Shown here: piece after piece, positions 6,565 through 23,255 of the stretch
Layout: each line of letters begins with the position of its first letter
Numbering within the stretch: the first letter of the stretch is position 1
From: an uncultured bacterium
GTDB lineage: Bacteria > Bacillota > Clostridia > Oscillospirales > Oscillospiraceae
Assembly: GCA_947643715.1 (NCBI GenBank)
Contig: CANRXB010000014.1
Location: forward strand, 1 to 58,104
Length of the DNA: 58,104 bases
Direction of reading: 5' to 3'
Position numbers and translations under genes: made by a program
The notes under the pieces: model-generated
What the model saw: the letters and a program-made list of their open reading frames with translations, nothing else
The model's database searches: none
What the model was told of the DNA's origin: nothing

Positions 6565-7386
6565 ATGCTGGGAAGATGGCTCGACAGGGTGCGGGAGCGC
6601 CGTCCCCGCATCCATTGCATCACGAACTATGTCACGGCCAACGATTGCGCCAACATCCTGCTGGCCTGCGGCGGCTCGCCGATCATGGCGGACGACGCCG
6701 GAGAGGTGGAGGAGATCGCGGCTTTGTGCGGCGGACTGGTGCTGAACATCGGCACGCTGGATGCCCGCACCGTGCCCGCCATGCTGGCCGCGGGGAGGAG
6801 GTCCAACGCCCTGGGCCACCCGGTGGTGCTGGACCCGGTGGGGGCGGGGGCGTCCGCGCTGAGGACCGGCACCGCCCTGGAGCTGCTGGAGCAGGTGCGT
6901 TTTTCCGTCATCCGGGGGAACATCTCCGAGATCCGGGCCCTGGCCCTGGGAGGCGGCTCCACCCAGGGAGTGGACGCCGACGCAGACGACGCGGTGAGGC
7001 CGGACACATTGGACGAGGCGGTCCACTTCGTCCAGGACTTCGCCCGGAGGACCGGGGCGGCCGTCGCCGTCACCGGGGCCGTCGATATCGTGGCCGACGG
7101 GGAAAAGGCGTACTGCATCTATAACGGCCACCCGATGATGAGCCGCGTCACAGGGACCGGCTGTCAGCTTTCCGCTCTGACGGCGGTTTTCGCCGCCGCC
7201 GCGCCCGGCCACGTCCTGGAGGCGGCCGCCTCCGCCGTGTGCGCCATGGGGGTGTGCGGCGAGCTGGCCCATGAGCGCATGGGGGAGCTGGACGGCAACG
7301 CCGCCTATCGGAGCCATATCATCGACGCGGTGTACCGCTTGGACGGCGAGACGCTGGACCGGCGGGCCGACTATAAGATCCTTTGA
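6565..7386 (+). CDS. thiM: Hydroxyethylthiazole kinase
   Basis: A 273-aa ribokinase-like enzyme that phosphorylates 4-methyl-5-(2-hydroxyethyl)thiazole, the salvage route to the thiazole half of thiamine. Family signatures are PRIHCITNYVTANDCAN near residue 14, VVLDPVGAGAS near 90, the RGN(I)SEI segment near 118, and the C-terminal catalytic VTGTGCQLSALTA near 196. It begins 2 nt after thiW; the ribosome site GGGGGAGG lies in the end of thiW, indicating translational coupling. With ThiW it forms a thiazole uptake and activation pair. Confidence 0.95.
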   Translation: MLGRWLDRVRERRPRIHCITNYVTANDCANILLACGGSPIMADDAGEVEEIAALCGGLVLNIGTLDARTVPAMLAAGRRSNALGHPVVLDPVGAGASALRTGTALELLEQVRFSVIRGNISEIRALALGGGSTQGVDADADDAVRPDTLDEAVHFVQDFARRTGAAVAVTGAVDIVADGEKAYCIYNGHPMMSRVTGTGCQLSALTAVFAAAAPGHVLEAAASAVCAMGVCGELAHERMGELDGNAAYRSHIIDAVYRLDGETLDRRADYKIL

Positions 7387-7400
7387 TGAGGGGGGAGAAC

Positions 7401-8048
7401 ATGAGATGCAGGCGGGAGACCATGCTGCTCTATGCCGTCACCGACCGGGCCTGGACGGGGGAGCAGACGCTGTATGAACAGGTGGAGCAGGCCCTGGACG
7501 GGGGCGTCACCTGCGTCCAGCTCCGGGAGAAGGGACTGGCGGAGGAGGCGTTCTTGGCGGAGGCCATGGAGATCGGAGCGCTGTGCCGGGCCTATGGGGT
7601 GCCGTTCCTCATCAACGACAGCGTGGAGATCGCCCTGGCCTGCGGCGCGGACGGCGTCCATGTGGGCCAGAGCGATATGGATGCCGGACGCGTCCGGGCC
7701 GCCGTGGGGGAGGGGATGCTGATCGGGGTGTCCGCCCGGACGGTGGAGCAGGCGGTCAAGGCCCGGGACGCCGGGGCGGATTACCTGGGGGTGGGGGCGG
7801 TGTTCGCCACCGCCACCAAGCATGACGCCAAAGAGCTGCCCCGCAGAGATCTGCAGGACATCTGCGCCGCAGTGGACATACCCGTGGTGGCCATCGGCGG
7901 CATCCATCGGGAGAACATCCTGGAACTGACCGGCTCGGGGGCGGACGGCGTGGCCTTGGTGTCCGCCATCTTCGCCGCGAAGGACATCGAGCGGGAGTGC
8001 CGGGAGCTGAAGGAGCTGTCCCGCAGGATGGTGGCCGGGGCGGGCTGA
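7401..8048 (+). CDS. thiE: Thiamine-phosphate synthase
   Basis: A 215-aa TIM-barrel enzyme joining HMP-pyrophosphate and thiazole phosphate to thiamine phosphate. Signatures in order: YAVTDR, VQLREK (near 36), INDSVEIA (near 69), DGVHVGQSD (pyrophosphate and Mg binding, near 85), and GVGAVFATATKHDA (near 132), where most family members have GPIFPTxTK. The start follows GGGGGGAG by 4-5 nt, 14 nt after thiM stops. Soluble. Confidence 0.95.
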   Translation: MRCRRETMLLYAVTDRAWTGEQTLYEQVEQALDGGVTCVQLREKGLAEEAFLAEAMEIGALCRAYGVPFLINDSVEIALACGADGVHVGQSDMDAGRVRAAVGEGMLIGVSARTVEQAVKARDAGADYLGVGAVFATATKHDAKELPRRDLQDICAAVDIPVVAIGGIHRENILELTGSGADGVALVSAIFAAKDIERECRELKELSRRMVAGAG

Positions 8049-8069
8049 GGGCCGAAAGGAGCGATCTTG

Positions 8070-8873
8070 ATGAAAACAGCGTTGTCCATCGCCGGGAGCG
8101 ACCCCAGCGGGGGGGCCGGCATCCAGGCGGATCTGAAGACCATGGCCATGAACGGGGTGTACGGCATGAGCGCCGTCACCGCCCTCACCGCCCAGAACAC
8201 CACCGGCGTGCGGGGGATCCTGGAGGTGGATCCCGGGTTCCTGGAGAGCCAGATCGACGCGGTGTTCGAGGACATCTTCCCCGACGCGGTGAAGATCGGC
8301 ATGGTGGCCTGCGCCACGCTGGTGGAGGTCATCGCGGGGCGGCTGCGGCGGTACGGCGCGCGGAACGTCGTGGTGGACCCGGTGATGGTGGCCACCAGCG
8401 GATCGGCGTTGATGCGCACGGACGCGGTGGACGTCCTGGTCCGGGAGCTGCTGCCTCTGGCCGCCCTGGCCACCCCGAACGTCCCGGAGGGGGAGGTACT
8501 GTCCGGCATGTCCATCCGTAGCCGGGCGGACATGGAGGAGGCGGCGCGGAGGATCGGCGAAGCCTGCTCCTGCCCGGTGCTCCTGAAGGGAGGCCACGCC
8601 CTGTGCGATGCGGACGACCTGCTGTGGGTGGACGGGACGGCGACCTGGTTCCACGCACAGCGCATCCGGACCGCCAACACCCACGGCACCGGGTGTACCC
8701 TGTCCAGCGCCATCGCGGCCAACTTGGCGAAGGGCTTCTCCCTGGAGGCGTCGGTGCGGCGGGCCAAGGAGTATCTCTCCGGGGCGCTGGCTGCGGGGCT
8801 GGATCTGGGGAAGGGCGCCGGTCCGATGGACCACGCTTTCGCCATGCAAGGCTACTTTACCCAGGAGGCTTGA
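8070..8873 (+). CDS. thiD: Hydroxymethylpyrimidine/phosphomethylpyrimidine kinase
   Basis: A 267-aa ribokinase-fold enzyme that phosphorylates HMP twice to give HMP-pyrophosphate. Signatures: SIAGSDPSGGAGIQAD at the N-terminus, DPVMVATSG near 112, TPNVPEGEVL near 138 (usually NLPEAE), and THGTGCTLSSAIAA near 212 with the catalytic Cys. The ATG at 8070 has AAAGGAG 8 nt upstream; a TTG one codon before is not needed. Sits between thiE and thiC. Confidence 0.95.
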   Translation: MKTALSIAGSDPSGGAGIQADLKTMAMNGVYGMSAVTALTAQNTTGVRGILEVDPGFLESQIDAVFEDIFPDAVKIGMVACATLVEVIAGRLRRYGARNVVVDPVMVATSGSALMRTDAVDVLVRELLPLAALATPNVPEGEVLSGMSIRSRADMEEAARRIGEACSCPVLLKGGHALCDADDLLWVDGTATWFHAQRIRTANTHGTGCTLSSAIAANLAKGFSLEASVRRAKEYLSGALAAGLDLGKGAGPMDHAFAMQGYFTQEA

Positions 8874-8902
8874 ACACTTACACGAAAAGGAGCTGTCCCT
8901 AT

Positions 8903-10207
8903 ATGAGAGCTTACGCCACACAGATGGACGCCGCCCGGCAGGGCATCGTCACCCCTGAGATGGAGGCGGTGGCAAAAAAAGAACATCGCACGGCGCAGGA
9001 GATCCGGGAGCTGGTGGCCAAAGGACAGGTGGCCATCTGCGCCAACCGGCTGCACACCTGTCTGGAGCCCAATGGGGTGGGCTCCATGCTGCGCACCAAG
9101 ATCAACGTGAACCTGGGGGTGTCCCGGGACTGCAAGGACTACGATGCGGAGATGCGCAAGGTCATGACGGCGGTGGACATGGGGGCGGAGGCCATCATGG
9201 ACCTGTCCTCCCACGGCGACACCCGGCCCTTCCGCCAAAAGCTGATCCGGGAGTGCCCCGCCATGATCGGCACGGTGCCGGTCTATGACAGCGTGATCCA
9301 TTACCAGCGGGACCTGGCCGAGCTCACCGCCAAAGACCTCATCGACGTGGTGCGCCTCCACGCCCGGGACGGGGTGGATTTCGTCACCCTCCACTGCGGC
9401 ATCACCCGCAAGACCATCGACCAGATCAGGACCCACAAGCGGAAGATGAACATCGTGTCCCGGGGCGGTTCCCTGGTGTTCGCCTGGATGTGCATGACCG
9501 GGGAGGAGAACCCGTTCTATGAGCGCTTCGACGAGATCCTGGACATCTGCCGGGAGTACGACGTGACCATCTCCCTGGGCGACGCCTGCCGCCCCGGCTG
9601 CCTGGCCGACGCCGGCGACGTGTGCCAGATCGAGGAGCTGGTGCGCTTGGGCGAGCTGACTGGACGGGCCTGGGCGAAGGACGTGCAGGTCATGGTGGAG
9701 GGCCCCGGCCACATGCCCCTGGACCAGATCGAGGCCAACATGAAGCTCCAGCAGACGATCTGCATGGGGGCGCCCTTCTATGTCCTGGGCCCCATCGTCA
9801 CGGACATCGCGCCTGGGTATGACCACATCACCGCCGCCATCGGCGGGGCGGTGGCGGCGTCCGCCGGAGCGGCCTTCCTGTGCTATGTCACTCCCGCCGA
9901 GCACCTGGCCCTGCCCGACGTGGACGATGTGAAGCAGGGGATCGTCGCGGCCAGGATCGCGGCCCACGCGGCGGACATCGCCAAGAAGGTGCCCCACGCC
10001 CGGGACCTGGACGACGCCATGGCGGAGGCCCGGCGGACCTTCGACTGGGACGGGCAGTGGGCGTGCTCCATCGACCCGGAGACCGCCAAGGCCATCCGGG
10101 CCGGCCGCAGCCCGGAGCACGAGGACAGCTGCTCCATGTGCGGAAAGTTCTGCGCCGTGCGCAGCATGAACAAGGCGCTGAGCGGCGAGCACATCGACAT
10201 CCTGTGA
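8903..10207 (+). CDS. thiC: Phosphomethylpyrimidine synthase (short form)
   Basis: A 434-aa radical-SAM enzyme that rearranges aminoimidazole ribotide to HMP-phosphate, the de novo pyrimidine half of thiamine. It is the shorter anaerobe form without the ~100-200-aa N-terminal extension of plant and proteobacterial ThiC. The C-terminal iron-sulfur motif reads CSMCGKFC, with three rather than four residues before the last Cys, as I recall for clostridial ThiC. Other landmarks are DLSSHGD near 90, EGPGHMPLDQIE near 272 and GPIVTDIAPGYDHI near 297. AAAAGGAG lies 10 nt before the ATG. Confidence 0.95.
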   Translation: MRAYATQMDAARQGIVTPEMEAVAKKEHRTAQEIRELVAKGQVAICANRLHTCLEPNGVGSMLRTKINVNLGVSRDCKDYDAEMRKVMTAVDMGAEAIMDLSSHGDTRPFRQKLIRECPAMIGTVPVYDSVIHYQRDLAELTAKDLIDVVRLHARDGVDFVTLHCGITRKTIDQIRTHKRKMNIVSRGGSLVFAWMCMTGEENPFYERFDEILDICREYDVTISLGDACRPGCLADAGDVCQIEELVRLGELTGRAWAKDVQVMVEGPGHMPLDQIEANMKLQQTICMGAPFYVLGPIVTDIAPGYDHITAAIGGAVAASAGAAFLCYVTPAEHLALPDVDDVKQGIVAARIAAHAADIAKKVPHARDLDDAMAEARRTFDWDGQWACSIDPETAKAIRAGRSPEHEDSCSMCGKFCAVRSMNKALSGEHIDIL

Positions 10208-10218
10208 GACGGGCCGGG

Positions 10219-10884
10219 ATGCACCGCAGATGCGTCATCGTGGGCGGGGCCGGGATCGGAGACTACGGAGCCGTCCGCCGGTATCTGAGGGCGGGCGACT
10301 TCAATGTGTTCTGCGACTGCGGCCTGGCCCACCGGGAGGGGCTGGGCATCGCCCCTCACTTGATCGTGGGGGACTTCGACTCCCACGAGGATCCCAAGCT
10401 GGACGTGGAGACCATCGTGCTGCCCTGCGAAAAGGACGACACCGACACCGTGTTCGCGGTGAAGGAGGCCCTGCGGCGGGGCTTCGACGACTTCCTGCTC
10501 GTGGGGGCGGCGGGGGGACGGCTGGACCACACTCTGGCGAACGTGTCCATCCTGCTGATGCTCCACCGGCAGGGGAAAAGTGCGCTGCTGGTGGACGACT
10601 GGTCGGAGATGGAGGTGGTGGGAGCGGAGCCGGTCCATGTCGATGGCTCCTTCCCCTTCTTCTCCCTGCTGAACGTCTCGGGGACGGCCAGAGGCGTCAC
10701 CGTGGAGGACGCGAGGTATCCTCTGCGGGACGCGGAGATCCGGTGTACCTACCAGTACGGCGTCAGCAACGAGGCGCTGCCCGGGCGGCGGGCCAGGGTG
10801 CGCGTAGGGGAGGGGGAGCTCCTGCTGATCCGAGTGCGGCAGGAGGACGCTCATACGGCGCCCCCCGCCGGAGCTGCTGAGTGA
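10219..10884 (+). CDS. thiN: Thiamine pyrophosphokinase
   Basis: A 221-aa enzyme that transfers pyrophosphate from ATP to thiamine, giving TPP. Signatures: CDCGLAH, VGDFDSH (near 55), KDDTDT (near 75) and GAAGGRLDH (near 98), then the C-terminal beta-barrel domain ending LLLIRV. The ATG at 10219 has only a weak GGGCCGGG ahead and lies 11 nt after thiC stops, so translation may be coupled. Last gene of the operon; makes the riboswitch ligand, closing the feedback loop. Confidence 0.92.
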   Translation: MHRRCVIVGGAGIGDYGAVRRYLRAGDFNVFCDCGLAHREGLGIAPHLIVGDFDSHEDPKLDVETIVLPCEKDDTDTVFAVKEALRRGFDDFLLVGAAGGRLDHTLANVSILLMLHRQGKSALLVDDWSEMEVVGAEPVHVDGSFPFFSLLNVSGTARGVTVEDARYPLRDAEIRCTYQYGVSNEALPGRRARVRVGEGELLLIRVRQEDAHTAPPAGAAE

Positions 10885-11796: not shown

Positions 11797-11840
11797 AAAA
11801 GACTGGACGAAGGGCCTCACGGCTCTCCGTCCAGTCTTTT
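11797..11840 (-). terminator. Terminator of the GHKL/LytTR operon
   Basis: A 13-bp perfect stem (11797-11809 with 11828-11840) whose distal arm on the minus strand is CGTCCAGTCTTTT, followed by GTCGTT. Its proximal arm is inside the last codons of the response regulator gene, so stop codon and terminator overlap. Confidence 0.8.
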
Positions 11841-12554
11841 GCGCAGCGCGGCCTTCCCGGCCCGGGACAGCAGGCACTCCCGGCCTCCCACCCGGACCCG
11901 GTTCCCCTTCCAGTCCACCGTCTGGATCTTGTCCCATGCCGCCAGATAGGCCCGGTGGATCCGGATGAACCGCCCGCCCAGCTTGGCCTCCAGTTCGCCC
12001 AGGGTGCCCACGAGATCCATCCGGCCGCTCGCGGTGTGGAGGACGATGTGGTGGGACTGTGGGGCGGTCTCGAAAAACAGGATGTCGTCCAGGGGGATGT
12101 GGCGGATCTCGTCCCCTATCCGCAGGGGGAACACCTCCACCGGGTCTCGGCGTTCGTCCATCAGACGCTCGTGGATCGCCTCCAGGCACCGGGCCGCGGA
12201 TGGGCCGATCTGCTCAGGCTCCTTCACGATGTAGTCGAAGGCTTCCAAATGGTATCGGAAGGTGCGCCACGCCAAGTCGCCGTAGCTGGTGATGTAGGCC
12301 AGGGTGCCGTGGGGATCCCGCCGCCGCAGCTCATGGCCCAGGCGGAAGCCGTCCCACTCCCCGTCCTTCAGGTCCACGTCCAGGAAATAGATGCTGCGTC
12401 GGTTGTCCTGCATGGCGTCCAGCAGCTCCCTGGCGCTGGCGGCGGAGCACACCACCTGCATATCGTAGCCCTCCATGAAGATCTTCCACTCCAGGGCGGT
12501 CTTGATCTGGTGGCGGACGCCGTCCTCGTCGTCGCAGAGATAGATCTGGATCAT
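11817..12554 (-). CDS. LytTR-family response regulator (AgrA type)
   Basis: A 245-aa DNA-binding regulator. The receiver domain (1-125) has acidic residues CDDED at 7-11, the phosphoacceptor Asp59 in FLDVD, and Lys in YIVKEP. The LytTR domain (about 140-240) has DILFFET and RFIRIHRAYLA with the usual C-terminal strand. Such proteins bind paired 9-bp direct repeats upstream of quorum or bacteriocin genes. It overlaps the kinase gene by 4 nt (ATGA), so the two are made together and are partners. Confidence 0.92.
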   Translation of the reverse strand: MIQIYLCDDEDGVRHQIKTALEWKIFMEGYDMQVVCSAASARELLDAMQDNRRSIYFLDVDLKDGEWDGFRLGHELRRRDPHGTLAYITSYGDLAWRTFRYHLEAFDYIVKEPEQIGPSAARCLEAIHERLMDERRDPVEVFPLRIGDEIRHIPLDDILFFETAPQSHHIVLHTASGRMDLVGTLGELEAKLGGRFIRIHRAYLAAWDKIQTVDWKGNRVRVGGRECLLSRAGKAALRKRLDGEP

Positions 12555-13891
12555 GGCCGGCCTCCTATGGTGAGCTCCTGGACGAACACGCCCTGCGCCC
12601 AGTTCGTGGAGGACAAGGTGTTGGGGCAGCGCGCCAGGATCTGCCGGTAGCTGGAAAGTCCCAGTCCCCGGCCCTCTCCCTTGGTGGAGAAGCCCTCTGT
12701 CCAGATGCCGTCCGGGTCGATGTCCCCGGCGTAGGGGTTGGACACCCGCAGGGACAGCAGATCCCCCCGGGACAGCAGGACGATCTCCACCCAGGGCGTT
12801 CCCGTTTCCAGAGCGGCCTGAGCGGCGTTGTCCAGCAGGATGCCCAGGCAGCGCACGAGATCCCAGACGTCCATCTTCACCGACTCCACGGGGTAGAGCA
12901 CCTCCAGGCGGCAGTCGATGCCCTGCTCCACCATGCCCGCCAGCTTGGACAGCAACAGGCTCCTCACTTGGGGGATGCGCAGGTTGCCGATCTGGGTGGA
13001 CGCCTGGATCTTCTCCCCGATGCGCCGGTCGAAGCCCGCGTCGAGCTGGGACAGGGAGGCCAGCAGCGCGTCCAGCTCCCCTGCCCCCGCCTGCTCCGAC
13101 AGGCCCGCCAGCAGGTTCTTATAGTCGTGGCGGAAGGCGCGCACCTCCCGGCGGATGGCCTCCAGATCTCGCTCATAGAGCTGCTGCTGGGTGATGATGT
13201 CCTGTTGGACCTCCATTTTCCGGGCGGCGTTGAACCACTGGGCCAGGTAGAGCAGCAGCCCCGCCGCAAGACCCGTCATTACCAGGACCAGAAGGTAGTA
13301 CAGGGCAAAATACTCCGTCGGGATCACCCGATGGAGCAGGTAGAACGCCTCCATGACACACGCCAAGGTGAAAGAAAACAGGGCTGTCTTGCGGGGGCTG
13401 GGGTCCTCCTCCAGCAGAAAGCGGAACCTGCGGCCGAAGCCCAGGCGGTGCAGCAGGGCGGCGGAGAGCAGCACCATGGCGCAAACGATGGACGTCACTA
13501 CGACGAATTGGAGGCCCTCGTTATCGTTGAATATGTTGCGGAACAAAAACTGGGTCAGGGCGGAGATGGCCACCTGGAACAGACCTGCTATGGACACGGC
13601 GGAAAGGGCCCGCCAGGATCCGATCCTCCAGACCCACCGGGTCCACAGCACGCAGCCCAGCATGGCGCTGAGGGAGCCGAGGCAGAAGCGGATGAGGATC
13701 CCGCCGGGAAGGGCGTGATACAGCGATATGTTGAGCGTGCAGGCGACCAGCGGGGAGGCGAGCAGGGCGGGCAGCTTCTTCAGGCGCCGTAAGCTGTGCT
13801 CATCCAGGATGATGAACAGGTAGGCCACCAGGATGGCGTGGGCCATCGTGGAACTTAAGTATGCGGTCAGATAGTTGACCAGTGTGGGCAC
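12551..13891 (-). CDS. GHKL sensor histidine kinase (AgrC type)
   Basis: A 446-aa membrane kinase. Six to seven hydrophobic segments fill residues 1-225, as in peptide-sensing AgrC/ComD kinases. A coiled helix leads to the phosphorylated His255 in FRHDYKNLL, and the ATPase domain has ILLDNAAQAAL (N-box, near 355) and GRGLGLSSYRQI (G-box, near 412). Starts with GTG at 13891, 6 nt after AAGGAGGGG. No AgrB protease or pheromone precursor is visible within the window, so the ligand gene lies elsewhere or the signal is not a peptide. Confidence 0.92.
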   Translation of the reverse strand: MPTLVNYLTAYLSSTMAHAILVAYLFIILDEHSLRRLKKLPALLASPLVACTLNISLYHALPGGILIRFCLGSLSAMLGCVLWTRWVWRIGSWRALSAVSIAGLFQVAISALTQFLFRNIFNDNEGLQFVVVTSIVCAMVLLSAALLHRLGFGRRFRFLLEEDPSPRKTALFSFTLACVMEAFYLLHRVIPTEYFALYYLLVLVMTGLAAGLLLYLAQWFNAARKMEVQQDIITQQQLYERDLEAIRREVRAFRHDYKNLLAGLSEQAGAGELDALLASLSQLDAGFDRRIGEKIQASTQIGNLRIPQVRSLLLSKLAGMVEQGIDCRLEVLYPVESVKMDVWDLVRCLGILLDNAAQAALETGTPWVEIVLLSRGDLLSLRVSNPYAGDIDPDGIWTEGFSTKGEGRGLGLSSYRQILARCPNTLSSTNWAQGVFVQELTIGGRP

Positions 13892-13971: not shown

Positions 13972-16671
13972 CTACGCTGTCCCGCCCTCATCCGGCGTCT
14001 GGAAGAAGGGGAGCGCGGCGTCGTCTCTCCTCATGAACAGCAGGCCGAATGAGCCTGGGCCGCAGTTGCTGGCGATGGCGGAAGATGCTTTTTGCAGGTA
14101 GATCCGCTCGAATGGGCAATGCTGCTGCACCAGGGCCTGGATGCGCTGGAGCTTTTTCTCGTCCATCCCGGAATATGTGATGAACAGGATGCGCCGGTCG
14201 ATGTTCCTGGTCTCCTGCAGCACTTTCTTGATGTATCTTTTTGCCGCGTGTGCAAAATTCCCCACCTCCATATGGCTGACCACCATCTTGCTCTTTTTCA
14301 GCACGAGCACCGGGTGCAGCAACAGCGCGTCGCAAAGGACCTGTATCTTTTTGGATATCCGTCCGGATCGACACATCATATGGGTGCTGTCTATGATGAA
14401 GGCGGAGGAGATGAAACGCCTCATCCGGTCCACCATCTCCACGATGGCCTCCTTCGTGGCGTGATGCTCCGCCATATAGGCTGCGCACAGCACGGTCAGG
14501 CCCATACTGCTGGAGAGATGCCCCGAATCGATCACCGTGACGTTTTCGAAGGATCTCGCGGCCTCAAGGGCGTTTTGATATCCGTCGCTGACGTGCCTGG
14601 CCATCGTGATATGGATCACGTTCTGCGCCTCCGTCAGCTTCTCAGCAAAGAACCGCTCATAGTCCTCCACATCGGGGGGCTGGGAATACCCCTTCCGCCC
14701 CTTGGAGATATGGATCAACAGCTCGTCTGCGCTCAGCTCCACTTCATCCAGGAAACGGCCCTCATCCGTACAGACATAATAGGGGCACACAGAGATGCCG
14801 AACTCGTTCAGGAGGTGCTCCGGCAGGTCGCACACGCTGTCCGTCGTCACCAGGAGAGAGCGTCTGTGCGCCTGCTCGAAGATCAGGATATCCTTCTCCA
14901 CGTCCACCTGCTGGGCGAGCTCGTTCAGATGCACCAGCCCTTTTGGAAGGATGCTCAGCACGGCCGCCTCCAGCAACGCGCCGCTGACCGGCTTTGCGAG
15001 GTATCCGCTGAAGCCTTCCTTCCGGTAGAGGAGCTGGTTGTCGCTGCCCGCGTTGGCGGTGAGAGCGACGACGGGCACGTCTTGGCACAGCCCTGTCGGC
15101 TGCACGCGCAAGGCGTGGAGACATTCGATCCCGTCCATCCCCGGCATCAAGTGGTCCATGAGGATGCAGTCGTAATGGTGGTCCTGTGTCAGCCGCAGGC
15201 ATTCGGCTCCGCTGGACGCCGTGTCGATCTGGATCTTCGTCGCCGTGAGCAGCTTCTTGACTACCATCAGGTTCATTTCGTTGTCGTCCACCACGAGGAT
15301 ATGCGCGTCCGGCGCCTCGAAGCTCTGCTGGTACGACTCGTTCTCATGCACCTTCGTGCGGGAGGCCAGGGTGAACGTCCCCAGCTCCTGTTCATCGACG
15401 ATGTCCTGGTCCAGCCTGACGATGAACTTCGATCCCTTGGTATAGACGCTGTTCACGCTGATCTCGCCGCCCATCAGCTCCACGAGCTGGTGCACGATGC
15501 TCAATCCCAGCCCGGTCCCCTCGATGTAGCGGTTCTTCTCCTCGTCTACCCGCCGGAACGCGTTGAAGATATAAGGGATGCTCTCCTTTTTTACGCCTTG
15601 TCCGGTATCCTCCACAGAGTACCAGACCCGCACCCGGTTGACCGCTTGGCGCTCACACCGGATGGAGAGGGTGACGGAGCCTTCGCTGGTATACTTCACC
15701 GCATTGTTCAGCAGGTTGATCAGGATCTGCTTGATGCGCACCTCGTCCCCGCAGAGCATGCTCGGGATGGACGGGTCCACCTGCAGCTTGAATTCCAGGC
15801 CCTTTTCCTTCGCCTTGATCCAGATCATGTTGACAATCTCCGAAAAGAGGGTGCCCGTCCCGTAAGAGACGTTGACGATCTCCATCTTCCCGGACTTGAT
15901 CTTGGATATGTCCAGGATGTCGTTGATCAGCGAGAGCAGCAGCTTGCTGGCCCCTTGGATGTTCCTCGCGTTCTCAGCCACCTCTGCCGAGATGTCCTCC
16001 CGCAGGATGATCTCGTTCAGGCCGATGATCGTGTTGATGGGGGTGCGGATCTCATGGCTCATGCTGGAAAAGAAGTGGTTCTCGGCGCGGTTCAGCTCCT
16101 CGATCTCCTTCTTCTGCTGCTGTGTGAGCGCGTTCTCCTCCTCGTACATCTTGTTGAGGAACATGAGCAGCACGCAGGTCAGCAGGCCGACCATGATCAC
16201 GGAAAACGCGGAGTCGAAAAAGGCGTACTGTTTGGTGTCCTGCGCGGCGAGCTCCGGGAAATAGAAGGCTGCGCCATAGCAGCCGAGCGTTTCCAACGTA
16301 CAGAGCACGAAGAATGTGACCATACGCCGCCCCTGCAGGGTGATACAGACATAGATGAAGCAGAAAACGAACCACTCCGGCACACCGCTGTAAAACCCGC
16401 CCGCTGTGAAGAAGCAGACGGGGAACAGTGTGAGCAGCAGGATCGCGATGACGGTGGCTCCGGTTCGGATCCGTTTTTTCTGGATGCTGAGTCTCGCGAT
16501 CAGCGCTATGGCGATAAGGTATACCACCATGATGATGATGTTCCAAATGTTCCTGCCCATAGGCATGGTGAATATCAGTGCGATCACGCAGATGCATGTT
16601 ACGATGCGGAACATGCGCTCGTGCAGGCTGATCCTGTGATCGGTGATGATCTCGAACCACTTCTTGATCAC
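13972..16671 (-). CDS. Hybrid histidine kinase-receiver-DegV fusion protein
   Basis: An 899-aa protein with three parts not usually joined. Residues 1-175: about six membrane segments. 185-425: HisKA/HATPase_c kinase with His206 in SHEIRTP, N-box NLLNNAVKYT near 319 and G-box GTGLGLSI near 385. 455-575: receiver with Asp506 in LMDHLMP and Lys560. 605-890: a complete DegV (EDD) lipid-binding domain, with TTDSVCDLP (609), YSQPPD (662), HVSDGYQNALEAA (693), VIDSGHLSSSMG (713), and MCRSGRISKKI (766) followed by LLLHPVL (783). DegV/FakB proteins bind fatty acids for FakA kinase. The fusion suggests a phosphorelay that senses or delivers to a lipid, which is inference. Last gene of a three-gene signalling operon. 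Confidence 0.9.
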   Translation of the reverse strand: MIKKWFEIITDHRISLHERMFRIVTCICVIALIFTMPMGRNIWNIIIMVVYLIAIALIARLSIQKKRIRTGATVIAILLLTLFPVCFFTAGGFYSGVPEWFVFCFIYVCITLQGRRMVTFFVLCTLETLGCYGAAFYFPELAAQDTKQYAFFDSAFSVIMVGLLTCVLLMFLNKMYEEENALTQQQKKEIEELNRAENHFFSSMSHEIRTPINTIIGLNEIILREDISAEVAENARNIQGASKLLLSLINDILDISKIKSGKMEIVNVSYGTGTLFSEIVNMIWIKAKEKGLEFKLQVDPSIPSMLCGDEVRIKQILINLLNNAVKYTSEGSVTLSIRCERQAVNRVRVWYSVEDTGQGVKKESIPYIFNAFRRVDEEKNRYIEGTGLGLSIVHQLVELMGGEISVNSVYTKGSKFIVRLDQDIVDEQELGTFTLASRTKVHENESYQQSFEAPDAHILVVDDNEMNLMVVKKLLTATKIQIDTASSGAECLRLTQDHHYDCILMDHLMPGMDGIECLHALRVQPTGLCQDVPVVALTANAGSDNQLLYRKEGFSGYLAKPVSGALLEAAVLSILPKGLVHLNELAQQVDVEKDILIFEQAHRRSLLVTTDSVCDLPEHLLNEFGISVCPYYVCTDEGRFLDEVELSADELLIHISKGRKGYSQPPDVEDYERFFAEKLTEAQNVIHITMARHVSDGYQNALEAARSFENVTVIDSGHLSSSMGLTVLCAAYMAEHHATKEAIVEMVDRMRRFISSAFIIDSTHMMCRSGRISKKIQVLCDALLLHPVLVLKKSKMVVSHMEVGNFAHAAKRYIKKVLQETRNIDRRILFITYSGMDEKKLQRIQALVQQHCPFERIYLQKASSAIASNCGPGSFGLLFMRRDDAALPFFQTPDEGGTA

Positions 16672-16724: not shown

Positions 16725-19295
16725 CTATAGCCTGGTGATATAAGTACACAGTTCTTCGTGGGCGCACAGCAGTGCGTGGTGATGCGTTTGGATGAAGTCC
16801 ACATCGCCCCGTTTTCCTGCCATCTCCAGCTCTTTGGCCTGTGCGGAAAGCGCTTGCGCTCCAATCGTCAGCGATGTGCTTTTCAGCGCGTGGACCTTGA
16901 TGGCATAGTCCTTCCAATCGGCGCTCTCGTACAGGGAAACGATCTCCGCTCGTTTCTCCGCGCCCTGGGAGCTATAGAGCCGCAGCATCTCCTGATAGAA
17001 ATCCTCGTCGCCGGCGCAATAGTCCAGGCCCAGCGCCACGTCGATGCCGGCCTGAGCGAGCCGGTCGTAGGGGTGGGCCGGGGCGTCCGCCGCAGGCGCC
17101 GGCTGCTCGACCGGGGGAGGCGGCTCCGGGACATGTGCCGAAGCGGCCTGCGCGGCTTCCGTGGGGACCTGCGCAGGCATCTCTGCGGGCATCTCCGCAG
17201 GCGCTTCCATAGGCGTTCCTGTGCTCGTGGGCTTCGCGCTGTACCGGATGCGATCTTTGGGCAGGACCTTTCGCAGCACTCGTTCCAGGACGGTGCGCTC
17301 GATGGGCTTGGGGACGAATTCGGTGAATCCCTCGCTGCGGAACATCTCCCGCGCGCCGCTGACGGTATTCGCGGTCAGCGCGATCACCGGCAGGTCCTGA
17401 TACATGCCGTTGCGAAGCTCGCGGATCTTTTTGAGCGTCTCCACGCCGTCATAGCCCGGCATCATATGGTCCAAGAAGATGATGTCATACGGGACGCTGC
17501 CGCACTGTGCGATCGCCTCTTTCCCGCTCAGGCAGGTGTCCACCTCGATCCCATAGCTTCCCAGGACCCCTCGGGCGACCATGAGGTTCATCTCCTCGTC
17601 GTCCACCGCCAAGGCGCGCACGCCCACGCAGGTGAAGGGCTTCCGGCCTGCGGCCTGATCCTCGACGAACCCGCGCTCTCCCATCTCCCCGTTGAGCAGG
17701 TTCGCCACGGAAAGCGCAGAAAACGGCTTGTGGATGATGAGCAGCCGGCTCTCGCTGCTCAGGGTGAATTCACGCTCCGCGATCACGACGACCCGGAGCG
17801 TGTTCGCCAGCTCCTCGTAATACGCCTGGTTCTCCTCGTATTCCGATTGGGCGATGAACACATGGGTCAGCTTGTGGCTGCGCTGCAATTTGAGGAGGCC
17901 CTCGAAATTATGTGCCTGATACCCCTCGATGCCTAGCCCATGCACTAGGTGGAAGATCAGCCCGTCATAATATCCGCGGACCTCGTCACAGACGTATCTC
18001 TCCGGCCGGAAATAGCACGCGATGCAGAATCGATCCGCATCGTTGAGCACGATACAGGGCTGCTCGTCCGCGACGCCCTGGGGGATCACGATATGGGCGG
18101 ACAGGCCCTGCTGCTCTCCGCTGGCAAAATGGACGAAGCCGCCCATGGCGGTCAAGAGCCCTTGGGCGATGGGGAGCCCGAGCCCGAGCCCGCCCGCGAG
18201 GCGGCTGCTCCCGGAGTCTGCCTGATAAAAGACGTCGGACATCTGCAGCAGTTGGATGTCCGTCATACCGATGCCGGTATCACGGATATCGACGATCAGA
18301 TTGATGCCATACTCCTCCCGCCGGTGCTTGATCCGGACGTTCACGCCGCCCTCTTCCGTGAACTTGATGGAGTTCTCCACCAGGATCTTGAGCACGTGGG
18401 AGATCTTTTCCGCATCTCCGATGAGAGCCGCCGGTACGTTGGGGTCGATATCGAACACCAGCTCCAGATGCTGCCGGTTGCTCTGCAGGGCAGTCATCGT
18501 GAGCACGTCGTTCAATACCGAGGTGATCATGTATTCCTTCTTTGCCGGGGCCAGCGTACCTTCCATGATCTCGGTGTAGTCCAGCATATTGTTGATCTGG
18601 TTGGACAGACGTTTCCCCGCCATTTTTATGGACATCATATCCGTCCGGATATCAGAGGGGAGCTCCTTGCCGAGCGCAACCTCGCTGATGCCGATCACCA
18701 TATTGATCGGGGTACGCAGCTCATGGGACACGTTGGAGAGGAAGATGGCGTTCTGCTTCCCCGCAGTCTCCAGCTTCTCGAATACACGCTCGTACCATTT
18801 CCGCTGTGCGTTTCGCCGGTCGATCCAGTAGTGGGCCAGCACGATCGCGCCAGTCGTCATGACAGCGCCAAGGCCAAGACGGAACATGTCCTGGCCTGCC
18901 ATTTGGGAAGAGATGGTGTGGAAGATCGTGCCATGATACAGCAGCACCAACAGATACAGGGACGATATCCCATGCAGGATCCACTTTTTGTTCAGCATGA
19001 ACAGCGCAAGGATCAGGATACAGGCTACAGCAGGGATCTCGAAGAGACTGGTCTCATGCACGCCAAAAAAAAAGAACTCGATCAGCATCGATCCGGCGCA
19101 CAGATTTTCATAGAACGTGTCCGACCCCAGCCGTGCGATGTGCAGGGTCCACACGCTGAAACACCCCGCTGCCATCAGAGGGACCATCCATAGCTCCCAA
19201 GCCATGGAGATGGTGACAAAACTCATTATGATGCTGAACACTGTGACGATCACGGCCAACAGGAGATGCCTGCTCGTGCGCTCCTCCGCCCTCAT
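16725..19295 (-). CDS. Hybrid sensor kinase HK-(pseudoREC)-REC-HPt
   Basis: An 856-aa phosphorelay kinase. Residues 8-157: about six membrane segments. 180-405: kinase core, His191 in SHELRTP, N-box VENSIKFT (307), G-box GGLGLGLPI (368). 410-545: a receiver-like region without a phosphoacceptor Asp, read as a degenerate receiver. 555-680: intact receiver, Asp609 in FLDHMMPG, Lys663. 688-742: Pro/Ala linker with repeated EMPA units. 745-856: HPt domain with His802 in VHALKSTS. The start overlaps the stop of the upstream single-receiver gene by 4 nt (ATGA), so the two are translationally coupled. Confidence 0.92.
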   Translation of the reverse strand: MRAEERTSRHLLLAVIVTVFSIIMSFVTISMAWELWMVPLMAAGCFSVWTLHIARLGSDTFYENLCAGSMLIEFFFFGVHETSLFEIPAVACILILALFMLNKKWILHGISSLYLLVLLYHGTIFHTISSQMAGQDMFRLGLGAVMTTGAIVLAHYWIDRRNAQRKWYERVFEKLETAGKQNAIFLSNVSHELRTPINMVIGISEVALGKELPSDIRTDMMSIKMAGKRLSNQINNMLDYTEIMEGTLAPAKKEYMITSVLNDVLTMTALQSNRQHLELVFDIDPNVPAALIGDAEKISHVLKILVENSIKFTEEGGVNVRIKHRREEYGINLIVDIRDTGIGMTDIQLLQMSDVFYQADSGSSRLAGGLGLGLPIAQGLLTAMGGFVHFASGEQQGLSAHIVIPQGVADEQPCIVLNDADRFCIACYFRPERYVCDEVRGYYDGLIFHLVHGLGIEGYQAHNFEGLLKLQRSHKLTHVFIAQSEYEENQAYYEELANTLRVVVIAEREFTLSSESRLLIIHKPFSALSVANLLNGEMGERGFVEDQAAGRKPFTCVGVRALAVDDEEMNLMVARGVLGSYGIEVDTCLSGKEAIAQCGSVPYDIIFLDHMMPGYDGVETLKKIRELRNGMYQDLPVIALTANTVSGAREMFRSEGFTEFVPKPIERTVLERVLRKVLPKDRIRYSAKPTSTGTPMEAPAEMPAEMPAQVPTEAAQAASAHVPEPPPPVEQPAPAADAPAHPYDRLAQAGIDVALGLDYCAGDEDFYQEMLRLYSSQGAEKRAEIVSLYESADWKDYAIKVHALKSTSLTIGAQALSAQAKELEMAGKRGDVDFIQTHHHALLCAHEELCTYITRL

Positions 19296-19654
19296 CTCTT
19301 CTCGAACTCCTGTGCGACCCGCTTCAGCAGTTCTTGGGGCCGGTATGGCTTTTTCAGATAATCCACCGCGCCCATCTTGATGGCGCAGACGACGTCCTCT
19401 TCCAGACCGGACGCCGTCAAGAAGATCACAGGGAGACTGGCGTCAAGGGCCTTGATGCGATTGAAGGTCTCGATGCCGTTCATTTCGGGCATGTCGATGT
19501 CCAAAAGGACCATGTCCGCCTTCTCCATCTTCAGTTTTGCCAGCGCTTCCAAACCTGATTCCGCCAAAAGCACGTCATATTCTTTCCCCAAGATGATCTT
19601 TGTCCTGGCCAGGTTCATGCTGTCGTCATCCACGACCAAAATACGCTTTTTCAT
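19292..19654 (-). CDS. Single-domain response regulator (CheY-like)
   Basis: A 120-aa stand-alone receiver: VVDDDSMN at the N-terminus, phosphoacceptor Asp in LLDIDMPEMNG near residue 52, TAS near 82 and Lys in YLKKPYRP near 104. It has no output domain, so it passes phosphate or binds a partner protein. It is first in the operon with two hybrid kinases, and the HPt of the next gene is its likely exchange partner. GGAGG lies 7 nt before the ATG. Confidence 0.92.
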   Translation of the reverse strand: MKKRILVVDDDSMNLARTKIILGKEYDVLLAESGLEALAKLKMEKADMVLLDIDMPEMNGIETFNRIKALDASLPVIFLTASGLEEDVVCAIKMGAVDYLKKPYRPQELLKRVAQEFEKR

Positions 19655-19706: not shown

Positions 19707-19735
19707 ATTTTAATGGAAGATCGCGAGAAAATCAA
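19707..19735 (-). promoter_or_regulatory. Promoter of the phosphorelay operon
   Basis: On the minus strand TTGATT (19730-19735), 17-nt spacer, TAAAAT (19707-19712). Confidence 0.65.
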
Positions 19736-19901: not shown

Positions 19902-21932
19902 TCACCGGATGCGGAAGCGGCTGATGAGGCTGTTCAAGGTCCGCGCCTGCTGGGACAGCTCCTTGGAGACTGCCGCGCTCTTCTCTGCGGCGGCGGAGTT
20001 GTCCTGGACCACCGAGGAGATCTCCCGGATCCCGTTCTCCACCAGGGAGATCATCTCCGACTGTTGGACGCTGGCGGCGGCGATCTCATCCATGAGCGCC
20101 TTGATGGACTGGATGCAGCGGTCGATGTCCTGCACGGCGGAGACGGCCATGTCCGTAGATTCCGTGCCGGTCTTGGCGTCCTGGATGGACCGGCTGATGA
20201 GGTCGTTGGTATCCTGCGCGGCCTCGGCCGATCTGGCCGCCAGGTCGCGGACCTCGTCCGCGACCACGGAGAACCCCTTTCCCGCGTTCCCGGCCCGGGC
20301 AGCCTCCACGGCGGCGTTCAGCGCCAGGATATTGGTCTGGAACGCGATGTCCTCGATGGTCTTGATGATGGAGCCGATCTTCGCGGAGGACTGGTCGATG
20401 TTCCTGGTGGCTGCGGTCAATCGCTCCATCTTCGCGTCTGCCTCGAGCGTGTAGCCGGTCGCCCGCTGCATCAGCTCGTCGGCGCTGTTGCAGCGCACAG
20501 CGCTGTCCTGGAGCTGGGTGGCGATGGCCGTGACGTTAGACGCCAGCCCGTTCACGGAAGCGGCCTGCTCTGTGGCGCCCTGAGCCAGCGCCTGGGCGCC
20601 CGAGGACACCTGCTCTGCGCTGGTATCCACCTGAGCGGCCACCTTGGAGATGTCGCCGATTACGCCCACCAGATCGACATGGATGGATCGGAGGCTGGCG
20701 GACAGGGCCTTGAAGTCGCCGATATAGTAGGACTCGTTCTCTGTGACGTCCACGGCGAGGTTGCCGTCGGCCATCTCGCCCAGGATGCGCCCCACGTCAT
20801 CGATGGTCTTTCGCAAATGGTCGCAGACCCGGTGGGTCGTCTGGGCGATCATGCCGATCTCGTCGGACCGGCCATAAAAGGGTTCCAGCTCCTGGTCGGC
20901 GGAAAGGTTCAGATCGCCCAAACGGCTGATGGCCCGTTCCACCACCATGAGGTCCCGGCCCTCCCGCCGCAGGAGCAGCAGGGTGAGCAGGATCACGGTA
21001 GCCGCCATGATCGCACACAGGACGCCGACCAGGACCCGGACCGTCGTCACAGCGGTAAAGACTTCCGTGGCGTTGTCCCGGACCATGAAGACCCAGCCGC
21101 GGTCCACCAGGTGCTTGTATACCACCAACTGCTTGACCCCAGCCTCATCCTGGTAGGAATATGTATTGGCGTGGGGGCTGGCCTCTGCCTGGATGCGCTG
21201 GATGATCTCCTGATATCCAGCGTCGGTGGTCACAGTGTTCAGGAGCTCGTCGTCCTCGTGGTAGAGATAGACGCCGGTGTCCACGTTCAGGAACACGTAC
21301 TCGCTGCTAGGCAGACCCTTGATCTCCAGGTCCAGCAGCGAGTCCGTAAGGTGGCTGGCATAGACGCCGGCGCCCACGAAGCCGATGCACCGCTGGCCCT
21401 CGAAGATAGGGCAGTACATGGACAAGATCATGCTGCCGGTGCCGGGAGACTTCATGATCCCCAGGTTCGTCAGTTCGTGCCGGGACAGGATGGTGTCCTG
21501 GAAGTTCTTCAGCGACTCCCCCGATCGGGTGATCATGCCGATGGCGCTCTGGGAGGTGTGGGTCAGTACATGGGTGGTGGGGGTGGCGATGTACAGACCT
21601 TCGAACACGCCTCCTTTGACGGCGGCGAAGTCCTCCGTATACTGTTGGGCCCGCGCGAGCAGCGCCGGATCGTCCGGGTCCAGCAGCAGGTCGTGGACTT
21701 CGTCGCTCAAGGCGAAGGCGGTCATATATTCTTCTGCGGAAAACACATACTCATCGATGATCGCGGCTCTGGATTCCACGGCGTCGGTCATCTGGTTGGT
21801 GATGTCGTTTTTGACGACGGAAGCGGCGTTGGTGGACACCACCAGCCAGAGCAGGGTCATCCCGACCAAGGTGATGATCGTTGTGATGATCCCGATCCGT
21901 GCAGCAAGTTTTTTGTTTTCTACAAATCGCAT
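19902..21932 (-). CDS. Methyl-accepting chemotaxis protein with Cache sensor
   Basis: A 676-aa chemoreceptor. Membrane segment 1 is at about 8-32, an extracellular dCache-type domain at 35-290 (YLY-type and [14 protein letters not shown] near the end), segment 2 at 292-318, a HAMP linker to about 370, and a signalling coiled coil to the C-terminus. The hairpin tip carries [16 protein letters not shown] near residue 562, the CheA/CheW contact region. It reports a small-molecule ligand to the flagellar motor or another output. The Met at 21932 has GGAGGAG 5 nt upstream. No flagellar or che gene is in the window. Confidence 0.93.
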
Positions 21933-22033
21933 AAAACTCCTCCAAGGAAAAAGGTCTTTGGGTCGATATCGCCTCATCCGTCAGAGAACTCGCCCTTGTA
22001 CTCCAATGGTAGGACCACATCGAGACCCCGCAT

Positions 22034-22062: not shown

Positions 22063-22227
22063 GAGATTCGTGAGATCCTTTCGTGCCGCGAGATCCGCCG
22101 TCCGCCCTCGCGCTCGGGGAGCGCGGCGCGGCGGTCCCGAAGCCCCTGCGCGGCCCGGGAGGGACGCCCAAGATATCCCACCGATCGGATCGCTTCCGGT
22201 GGAAAGACTATCGTTCATCGGTGAGAT

Positions 22228-22240
22228 ATCATAGTATGAT
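22228..22240 (+). promoter_or_regulatory. Palindrome over the -10 region of the bile salt hydrolase gene
   Basis: ATCATAGTATGAT is a perfect 13-bp palindrome and contains TATGAT, the likely -10 box at 22235-22240. No good -35 box is seen, so an activator or a repressor acting here is plausible. Confidence 0.4.
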
Positions 22241-22280
22241 GGACAGTAGCCTTACGATATATATGAATGGAGGGGTTTCG

Positions 22281-23255
22281 ATGTGCACTGCGGCCGCTTA
22301 CCGGACCCGCGACTTTTATTTTGGCAGGACGCTGGATCATGAAGACTCCTACGGCGAGGAGATCACGATCGCGCCCCGGGGCTATCCGTTCCGGTTCCGG
22401 GCGGGCGGGACACTGCCGCGGCACTACGCCATGATTGGCATGGCCCATGTGGCCCAGGGCTATCCCCTGTACTACGACGCGGTGAACGAGAAGGGGCTGG
22501 GCATGGCCGGGCTGAACTTCGTGGGCAACGCGGTCTATCAGGAGCCTGAGCCGGGGCGGTACAACGTGGAGACCTTTGAGTTCATCCCCTGGATCCTCGG
22601 CCGCTGCGCCACAGTGGGAGAGGCCCGGGCGCAGCTTGGCCGGCTGGACCTGACGGGCGGGGCCTTTGACGCCGCGCTGCCTGCGGCCCGGCTCCACTGG
22701 ATCGTCGCGGACAAGGAGGAGACCATCGTGGTGGAGCCGATGGAGGACGGCCTGCGGGTGTATGACGACCCGGCGGGCATACTGACCAACGATCCGCCGT
22801 TCGACGAGCAGATGTTCAACCTCAACAACTATATGGCGTTGTCTCCCTGCCGGCCCCGGAACCTCTTTTCCAGTAAGCTGGATCTGGCCCCATATAGCCG
22901 CGGGATGGGGGCGCTGGGCCTGCCTGGGGACCTGTCCTCCCAATCCCGGTTCGTCCGTGCGGCGTTCGTGTGCCTCAACTCTGTTTCCGGGGATTCGGAA
23001 GAGGAGAGCGTCAGCCAGTTCTTCCACATCCTGAACAGTGTGGAGCAGCAGCGGGGCTGCTGCGAGGTGGGGCCCGGCGTATACGAGTACACCATCTACA
23101 CCTCTTGCTGCAACGCAGACCGTGGGATCTACTATTACACCACCTACGGCGACCACCAGATCAGCGCGGTGGACCTCCACCGGACGGACCTGGACGGTGT
23201 GAATCTGGTCCGGTACCCGCTGGTCTGCGGAGAGCAGATCAGGTTCCAGAACTGA
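22281..23255 (+). CDS. bsh: Choloylglycine hydrolase (bile salt hydrolase)
   Basis: A 324-aa Ntn-hydrolase, the normal length for bile salt hydrolases, which cleave glycine or taurine from conjugated bile salts. After Met removal the nucleophile is Cys2 (MCT). Other catalytic and pocket residues are in place: FGRTLDHE (Arg and Asp), MAGLNFVGN, LTNDPPF (Asn), and GLPGDLSSQSRFVRAAF (Arg). No signal peptide, so cytoplasmic, as usual in gut Firmicutes. Penicillin V acylase is the alternative, but GLPGDLSS and YEYTIYTSCCN favour a bile salt substrate. TGGAGGGG precedes the ATG by 7 nt. Monocistronic by position. Confidence 0.9.
   Translation: MCTAAAYRTRDFYFGRTLDHEDSYGEEITIAPRGYPFRFRAGGTLPRHYAMIGMAHVAQGYPLYYDAVNEKGLGMAGLNFVGNAVYQEPEPGRYNVETFEFIPWILGRCATVGEARAQLGRLDLTGGAFDAALPAARLHWIVADKEETIVVEPMEDGLRVYDDPAGILTNDPPFDEQMFNLNNYMALSPCRPRNLFSSKLDLAPYSRGMGALGLPGDLSSQSRFVRAAFVCLNSVSGDSEEESVSQFFHILNSVEQQRGCCEVGPGVYEYTIYTSCCNADRGIYYYTTYGDHQISAVDLHRTDLDGVNLVRYPLVCGEQIRFQN

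Follow-up and report, generated by a model that had tools for sequence, protein, structure and literature searches.

The DNA analysed here, hereafter the window, is a stretch of 58,104 nucleotides from an uncultured member of the Oscillospiraceae (assembly GCA_947643715.1, contig CANRXB010000014.1). It encodes a membrane hybrid histidine kinase, HK2, in which a DegV domain, of the family of the fatty-acid-binding protein FakB, follows the receiver domain. HK2 is the third gene of a cassette that also contains a single-domain receiver (REC1) and a second hybrid kinase (HK1); nearly always found with this partner kinase, and seemingly tied to the control of swimming, the fused DegV domain may read an internal lipid-like signal. 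The preferred reading is a three-gene membrane phosphorelay whose DegV domain, put to a new use, detects an acyl-type ligand and adjusts motility or cyclic di-GMP (c-di-GMP); we would give it an even chance. The broader formulation, that the FakB fold was recruited in gut Clostridia as an intracellular lipid receptor of a two-kinase phosphorelay setting motility or c-di-GMP, as a new class of sensory domain with a retuned head-group site (His to Asn) and an erased FakA-docking arginine, is tentative and is held at somewhat less than an even chance. The computed basis consists of the architecture, the conservation of the cassette, the DegV fold, the loss of FakA-facing residues, the conservation of the head-group site in close members and an association with flagellin.

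The HK2 frame (13972..16671, minus strand, 899 aa, GTG start; identified by Pfam and by orthologues) reads from 16671 to 13972 with no internal stop codon. Its membrane part (residues 16-176; 16144..16626, minus strand) was delimited by hydropathy and by the helices of an AlphaFold2 (AF2) model. This strongly hydrophobic region has hydropathy segments at residues 16-42, 38-65, 68-95 and 149-176, to which the model adds helices 99-111 and 115-137, and it leaves no space for a large extracellular domain. Then follow, on the same strand, HisKA (residues 198-261; 15889..16080; Pfam 1.4e-15) with the phospho-acceptor His206 at 16054-16056, HATPase_c (residues 308-422; 15406..15750; 7.9e-27), the Response_reg receiver (residues 458-571; 14959..15300; 2.1e-23) with Asp506 at 15154-15156, and DegV (residues 607-880; 14032..14853; 3.4e-44), the last being identified also by AF2, Foldseek and residue comparison. 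All four domains exceed the curated Pfam cut-offs. The NCBIfam DegV domain model matches HK2 with 160.8 bits (cut-off 99.7), and is the only one to pass its own cut-off among the 25 models listed of 139 matching. An earlier sequence-only reading of this DNA had claimed, with no strand given, an 899-aa protein that joins a membrane hybrid kinase to a complete DegV, had named His206 and Asp506, and had placed DegV at 605-890, to be verified by a domain search; these claims hold, with the domain boundaries given above.

Nineteen catalytic positions of HK2 were compared among 74 close sequences, and all are invariant (74/74) except N322 (71/74). The invariant positions include His206 of HisKA, N319, N323, D355, G357, G359, G385, G387 and G389 of HATPase_c, and Asp506, T538 and K560 of the receiver. 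Judged by its residues, HK2 is a predicted hybrid histidine kinase with its phospho-acceptor His, its N and G boxes and the Asp/Thr/Lys set of its receiver in place.

For the survey of relatives, GTDB genome contigs were scanned with the DegV part; two octapeptide patterns limited the matches to close relatives, and the best 80 of 131 were kept (loci L059-L138). The whole receiver and the whole DegV share one frame in 78/80 loci, and the two exceptions, L070 (receiver end only) and L084 (DegV only), both lie at contig starts. The protein is complete from its N-terminus in 73/80 loci, with 73-86% identity to the window protein, so that the genome survey for the same domain order, which the sequence-only reading had suggested, recovered it widely. 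That reading had also allowed that a joining error between receiver and DegV would undo the claim. Assembly or frame error at this joint was rejected as a source of HK2, because three genomes of the same genus (whole protein, 80-82% identity) and independent loci hold the complete frame. Averaged over the 74 sequences, identity to the window protein is 0.66 for the membrane part, 0.91 for HisKA, 0.90 for HATPase, 0.87 for the receiver and 0.78 for DegV. The DegV part is under purifying selection, with its ratio of nonsynonymous to synonymous rates (dN/dS), computed by our own Nei-Gojobori script, lying at 0.07-0.17 for six pairs.

In the cassette, the order is REC1, HK1, then HK2. REC1 (19292..19654, minus strand) is a CheY-like single-domain receiver of 120 aa, with an ATG at 19654 and GGAGG upstream; its stop codon overlaps the start of HK1 by 4 bases (ATGA). 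HK1 (16725..19295, minus strand, 856 aa; identified by Pfam and orthologues) is a membrane hybrid kinase with the order HisKA-HATPase-REC-Hpt. HK1 was matched in 71/80 close loci, and these are also the loci with the cassette REC1 (a further match in L101 was set aside as an unrelated receiver), and HK2 was matched at 60% coverage in 77/80. Among the nine loci without HK1, L070, L084, L101, L105, L125, L126, L129 and L138 start at a contig start, and L078, in which pieces of HK1 and HK2 run together, is rearranged or misassembled; in L061, HK1 is split over two frames. The phospho-site motifs of HK1 and REC1 are kept in 71 aligned orthologues each, one HK1 row ending before the His. The Hpt of HK1 passes its Pfam cut-off (5.5e-06, 27 bits against 24.6), and its HALKS motif is conserved in the alignments, as is the Asp of REC1. 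The parts of a His-Asp-His-Asp phosphorelay, including an Hpt and a candidate terminal receiver, are by these motifs encoded alongside the kinase. No further neighbour family occurs in more than 7/80 loci, and no fixed neighbours such as lipid genes recur.

The wider family was mapped in 49 loci (L139-L147 and L171-L210) by phmmer, with queries taken from the window, L140, L141 and L144. These figures are counts of loci and not of independent events, because L171 and L172 belong to the close group (repeating L108 and L103) and some genomes contribute several loci. The partner HK1 was found by script in the operon in 45/49 loci; L176, L185 and L193 are cut or fragmentary for HK1, L139 is without it, and the HK1 counted in L210 is the DegV protein itself. 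The DegV protein takes the form HK-REC-DegV in 36 loci (in one of them, L147, the membrane part lies in another frame), HK-REC-DegV-Hpt in 10, and DegV-TM-HK-REC (with the transmembrane part between DegV and kinase), DegV-Hpt and HK-DegV in one each. Pfam confirms the last three (L179, L186 and L210, respectively) and two Hpt forms. In L179 (5410-8304) the order is reversed, DegV preceding the kinase's membrane part, in a frame that reaches the contig end; in L210 DegV follows the HATPase, with no Pfam HisKA or REC. HK1 alone carries the Hpt in 27 loci and the DegV protein alone in 8; in 7 it is encoded solely by another gene, and in 2 there is none. Another gene has an Hpt besides that of HK1 in 2 loci and besides that of the DegV protein in 3 ("another gene" takes in third HK-REC-Hpt kinases and split fragments). 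Where DegV and Hpt share one protein and the partner is visible, HK1 lacks an Hpt in 10/10 loci. That either partner may bear the Hpt is the strongest indication of a single relay made up of both kinases. Since DegV in relatives may also be inserted between REC and Hpt, precede the membrane part or be joined straight to the Hpt, the domain has no fixed output position, contrary to what the sequence-only reading had supposed; with the Hpt moving as well, DegV looks like a regulatory module and not like a terminal output.

The fold and the residues of the DegV domain were compared with those of FakB. The AF2 model of the domain has a predicted local distance difference test (pLDDT) of 93 and a predicted TM-score (pTM) of 0.90. 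In a Foldseek search of the PDB, the first 45 matches are DegV/FakB structures (TM-score 0.72-0.82, 2dt8 at the top), and FakB1 with palmitate (5uto) gave a TM-score of 0.80. As modelled, the fused domain has the DegV/EDD fold of FakB; the structural comparison with FakB proposed in the sequence-only reading came out, at a TM-score of about 0.8, on the side of that assignment.

Passages of PMC8892158 and PMC9136124 describe Thr62, Ser95, Ser171 and His270 of FakB as a network around the fatty-acid carboxylate, Arg173 as required for the FakA reaction and Arg205 as docking FakA and the membrane; PMC8892158 also describes the two arginines as fully conserved among FakB proteins. By multiple alignment these residues correspond to S663 (Thr62), S695 (Ser95), S769 (Ser171), N869 (His270), R771 (Arg173) and V803 (Arg205). 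A phmmer alignment to 2dt8 also places Thr62 at S663; pairwise alignments to FakB1 put Arg205 at the adjoining G804, a column that is Gly in 74/74 and never Arg. Residues were counted in the 74 close, the 49 wider-family and 28 standalone DegV sequences. The last set was drawn mostly from the standalone frames closest to the fused domains, and it contains divergent DegV proteins, among them two FakA-DegV fusions. Ser or Thr stands at 663 in 74/74 close, 41/49 wider and 28/28 standalone sequences, and at 695 in 74/74, 27/49 and 28/28. Position 769 is S in 42 and A in 30 of the 74 close sequences. At 869, His is found in 0/74, 1/49 and 25/28, and Asn in 74/74, 46/49 and 0/28. Arg is present at 771 in 53/74, 21/49 and 28/28 (the window protein itself keeps R771), and at 803 in 0/74, 2/49 and 20/28, the 8/28 controls without Arg205 reflecting that DegV is wider than FakB. 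Arg173, Arg205 and His270 occur all together in 0/74 close and 0/49 wider sequences as against 20/28 standalone ones. To judge from these alignments, the FakA-docking arginine is gone, and the putative polar head-group site (S663, S695 and N869, invariant in 74/74) is kept in close members and relaxed in wider ones. A cysteine cluster (C614, C629, C780, C852, C870) was considered and not adopted; C614 and C870 are common in standalone DegV too.

These residues bear on whether DegV is the output of HK2, that is a tethered FakB that would hand fatty acid to FakA depending on the phosphorylation of the receiver beside it. DegV is indeed the last domain after REC in 36/49 wider loci and in the 78/80 close loci where both are visible, R771 is kept in the window protein, and a 629-aa frame with a Dak2 match gives the genome a FakA-like protein. 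Arg205 is nevertheless missing throughout the close group and Arg173 is kept in only 53/74, both being residues that FakB is described as conserving completely; the three-residue signature is found in no fused domain, and the genome already has four standalone DegV genes. This model fails because the docking residue is lost and the position of the domain is variable, and we regard it as highly improbable. As the own genome keeps the ordinary fatty-acid activation parts (the four standalone DegV frames and the FakA-like protein), the fused domain is an addition to them. Of the two guesses of the sequence-only reading, that bound lipid tunes the kinase is thus favoured, while phosphorylation control of a lipid carrier is disfavoured on the same grounds. 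In a genome of the same genus, a separate 469-aa DegV protein (L043, 1504-2913, minus strand) has about 190 N-terminal aa with no Pfam match.

Alternatively, with a remodelled acyl tunnel, the domain could respond to a metabolite other than a lipid. The change of His270 to Asn in 120/123 fused domains (118/121 minus the two repeated loci) would fit, as would C629, H718 and H786, which never vary in close members and are seldom or never found in the standalone rows. Against this, the DegV/FakB titles among the matches listed (50 Foldseek rows) name only fatty acid or lipid ligands, and we hold a non-lipid ligand to be improbable.

As for the output, the extra gene of the operon in the 49 wider-family loci encodes a GGDEF or HD-GYP protein in 27, a methyl-accepting chemotaxis protein (MCP) in 5, a receiver only in 8 and an OmpR-type regulator in 1; it is absent in 8, of which 3 lie near a contig end by script. 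Pfam confirms extra genes of the forms REC-HD_5, REC-GGDEF-REC, REC-GGDEF-REC-HD_5, REC-GGDEF and REC-EAL-GGDEF. L171 has an HD protein without a receiver, several receiver-only genes (L147, L191) are of about 260 aa with an N-terminal part lacking a Pfam match, and in L145, L199, L201, L203 and L205 the MCP gene stands in the place of REC1. The window cassette itself has no GGDEF, EAL or HD-GYP output domain by Pfam and NCBIfam, and matches in its own genome number 6 for GGDEF, 4 for flagellin and 3 for CheW. The association with flagellin was computed in the family of genome G257, probably of Lachnospiraceae type, where 50 of 299 genomes match at E <= 1e-50 and 45 of these have a frame of at least 700 aa (the carrier and flagellin surveys cover 299 genomes each, with identical handles among those listed). 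Flagellin was matched in 41/45 fused carriers against 114/254 other genomes (Fisher p 2.4e-9), or in 44/50 against 111/249 when all matching genomes are counted; in the genus of the window it was matched in 4/4 carriers against 16/38 others. The sequence-only reading had the HK-REC-DegV architecture right, and missed both the cassette (lone REC and HK-REC-Hpt) and the links to c-di-GMP enzymes, chemoreceptors and flagella.

In the mechanism that we propose, the hybrid kinases HK-REC-Hpt and HK-REC-DegV would work as one membrane-based unit. Phosphate would go via the receivers of both kinases to the Hpt of HK1 and from there to the free receiver REC1, whose counterpart gene in many relatives is a putative c-di-GMP enzyme or chemoreceptor. 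The DegV domain would bind a molecule, most probably one with an acyl chain and not passed on to FakA, and this ligand would set the kinase or phosphotransfer activity, the regulated trait presumably being motility or c-di-GMP.

Several points weigh against this reading, of which we infer the ligand, the direction of phosphate flow and the motility output. The contact between DegV and kinase is not readable from the full-length AF2 model of HK2, because its global confidence is low (pTM 0.41). More than one Hpt is held by 5/49 operons, which weakens the argument that the Hpt moves between partners. The invariance of S663, S695 and N869 is by itself no proof of a binding site, because 83/277 DegV columns are invariant in close members; with His270 replaced and Ser at S695 in only 27/49 wider members, these may have a different or an empty pocket. 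These residue data would suit a DegV domain without ligand, its fold serving for docking or dimerisation to hold REC or Hpt in position, and so would the presence of DegV and Hpt in one protein in 11/49 loci. Such a scaffold is unlikely, though to be taken seriously: the three head-group positions are polar and invariant where the FakA-facing Arg positions are not, the whole lipid-binding fold is retained in the AF2 model, and the low dN/dS given above also speaks against it.

The link to c-di-GMP rests on relatives, because the receiver gene of the window has no output domain. The flagellin figures come without a control gene family, motile genomes may simply be richer in signalling genes, and 4/45 carriers (G476, G502, G537, G567) have no flagellin match. 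The cassette could on these grounds be unrelated to motility, REC1 feeding another phosphorelay as the receiver Spo0F does and the flagellin link being a by-product of gene-rich genomes. With GGDEF/HD-GYP or MCP genes in the operon of 32/49 wider loci, this too seems unlikely, at roughly one chance in several, and a phosphorelay tuning motility or c-di-GMP is retained as the preferred reading.

The 80 close loci belong mostly to Oscillospiraceae and Lachnospiraceae. In a tree of 74 proteins (15 rows being without family name), Lachnospiraceae are confined to one side of a branch and Oscillospiraceae require 2-3 changes; recent wide transfer is not indicated, since the tree follows family names. 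The identity of 73-86% across two families and the patchy presence (4/42 genomes in the genus of the window) leave open a possible older transfer. Spread by plasmids was rejected (tblastn of plasmids at E <= 1e-60 gave one Treponema record, covering residues 165-576 only), as was spread by phages (32 phage-record matches to the DegV part, all below 60% identity, the 8 listed being at 26-30%). In the class (391 genomes), DegV-kinase fusions with frames of about 890-1145 aa were found, besides the own genome, in G257, G422, G366, G191, G116, G170 and G386, and a shorter one of 724 aa in G145. In a survey of the phylum (398 genomes, matches at E <= 1e-48), frames of at least 700 aa were found only in G000, G170 and G145, all inside the class, and none outside it. 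MGBC or iMGMC names, which we take to be those of mouse-gut catalogues, are carried by 24/80 close loci, and a centring of the close group on the rodent gut is possible.

Around the cassette, a promoter-like match TTGATT-17-TAAAAT (9/12; 19707..19735, minus strand) before REC1 is weak, with 8 such matches in the region and 3.2 expected. An MCP gene (19902-21977, minus strand; MCPsignal, with dCache_1 below cut-off) lies directly upstream of the cassette on the same strand; MCP-like frames are near the cassette in 2/80 close loci. Just downstream, a gene pair for a GHKL-type histidine kinase and a LytTR response regulator (11817-13891, minus strand) is not conserved with the cassette. A choloylglycine-hydrolase family protein (22083-23255, plus strand; Pfam CBAH 2.2e-94), possibly a bile salt hydrolase, is encoded nearby, and L146 also has a member of this family, 58% identical to that of the window. 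Further away are a run of thiamine-like frames (7383-10884, plus strand: ThiE, ThiD, ThiC and thiamine pyrophosphokinase, judged by eye) and, at 51702-53840 (plus strand), frames of more than 1300 aa, in which a kinase-receiver part shares 39% identity with HK2 and GGDEF is matched weakly (2.6e-9).

Free fatty acid handling in Gram-positive bacteria is thought to proceed mainly via FakAB and transcription factors. If the preferred reading is true, a FakB-fold kinase would be a direct route from an intracellular acyl ligand to phosphorylation and, in relatives, to c-di-GMP. The presence of the family in many gut Lachnospiraceae-type and Oscillospiraceae genomes would make a link from gut lipids to commensal swimming or settling testable. 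A Pfam DegV match alone should not earn such proteins the name FakB. In full-text literature searches, no description of a DegV-kinase fusion was found among the matches listed, judged by titles, term counts and the beginnings of abstracts, in agreement with the sequence-only reading, to which the architecture was new; databases of the InterPro type may list HK-REC-DegV automatically. DegV is mentioned in other contexts in passages of PMC3146951, PMC9385722 and PMC12688256.

Among known systems, the FakB/DegV proteins (PF02645, TIGR00762; S. aureus FakB1, T. thermophilus 2dt8) share the whole fold with the fused domain at 15-28% identity over structure alignments, and the hydroxyls at the Thr62 and Ser95 positions are kept in close fused members. 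The HK2 domain differs from them by its fusion to a membrane kinase, the loss of Arg205, the variable Arg173 and the change of His270 to Asn, and its lipid binding is putative. DegV also stands in a multidomain protein in the apparent FakA-FakB fusions of L148 (4503-6296) and L149 (4869-6686), of about 600 aa (Pfam Dak2, FakA_M, DegV), which are of the lipid-kinase type whereas HK2 is a signalling kinase. Receiver-regulated c-di-GMP enzymes beside kinases (REC-HD-GYP, REC-GGDEF) correspond to the extra gene of the cassette in many relatives, while the receiver of the window stands alone. With hybrid kinases of the TorS, BarA and ArcB type, HK2 shares the order HisKA-HATPase-REC and the catalytic residues; the top NCBIfam kinase match is BarA for HK1 and TorS for HK2, far below the cut-off of every named kinase listed. 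Unlike these kinases, HK2 adds a DegV domain and pairs with a second hybrid kinase.

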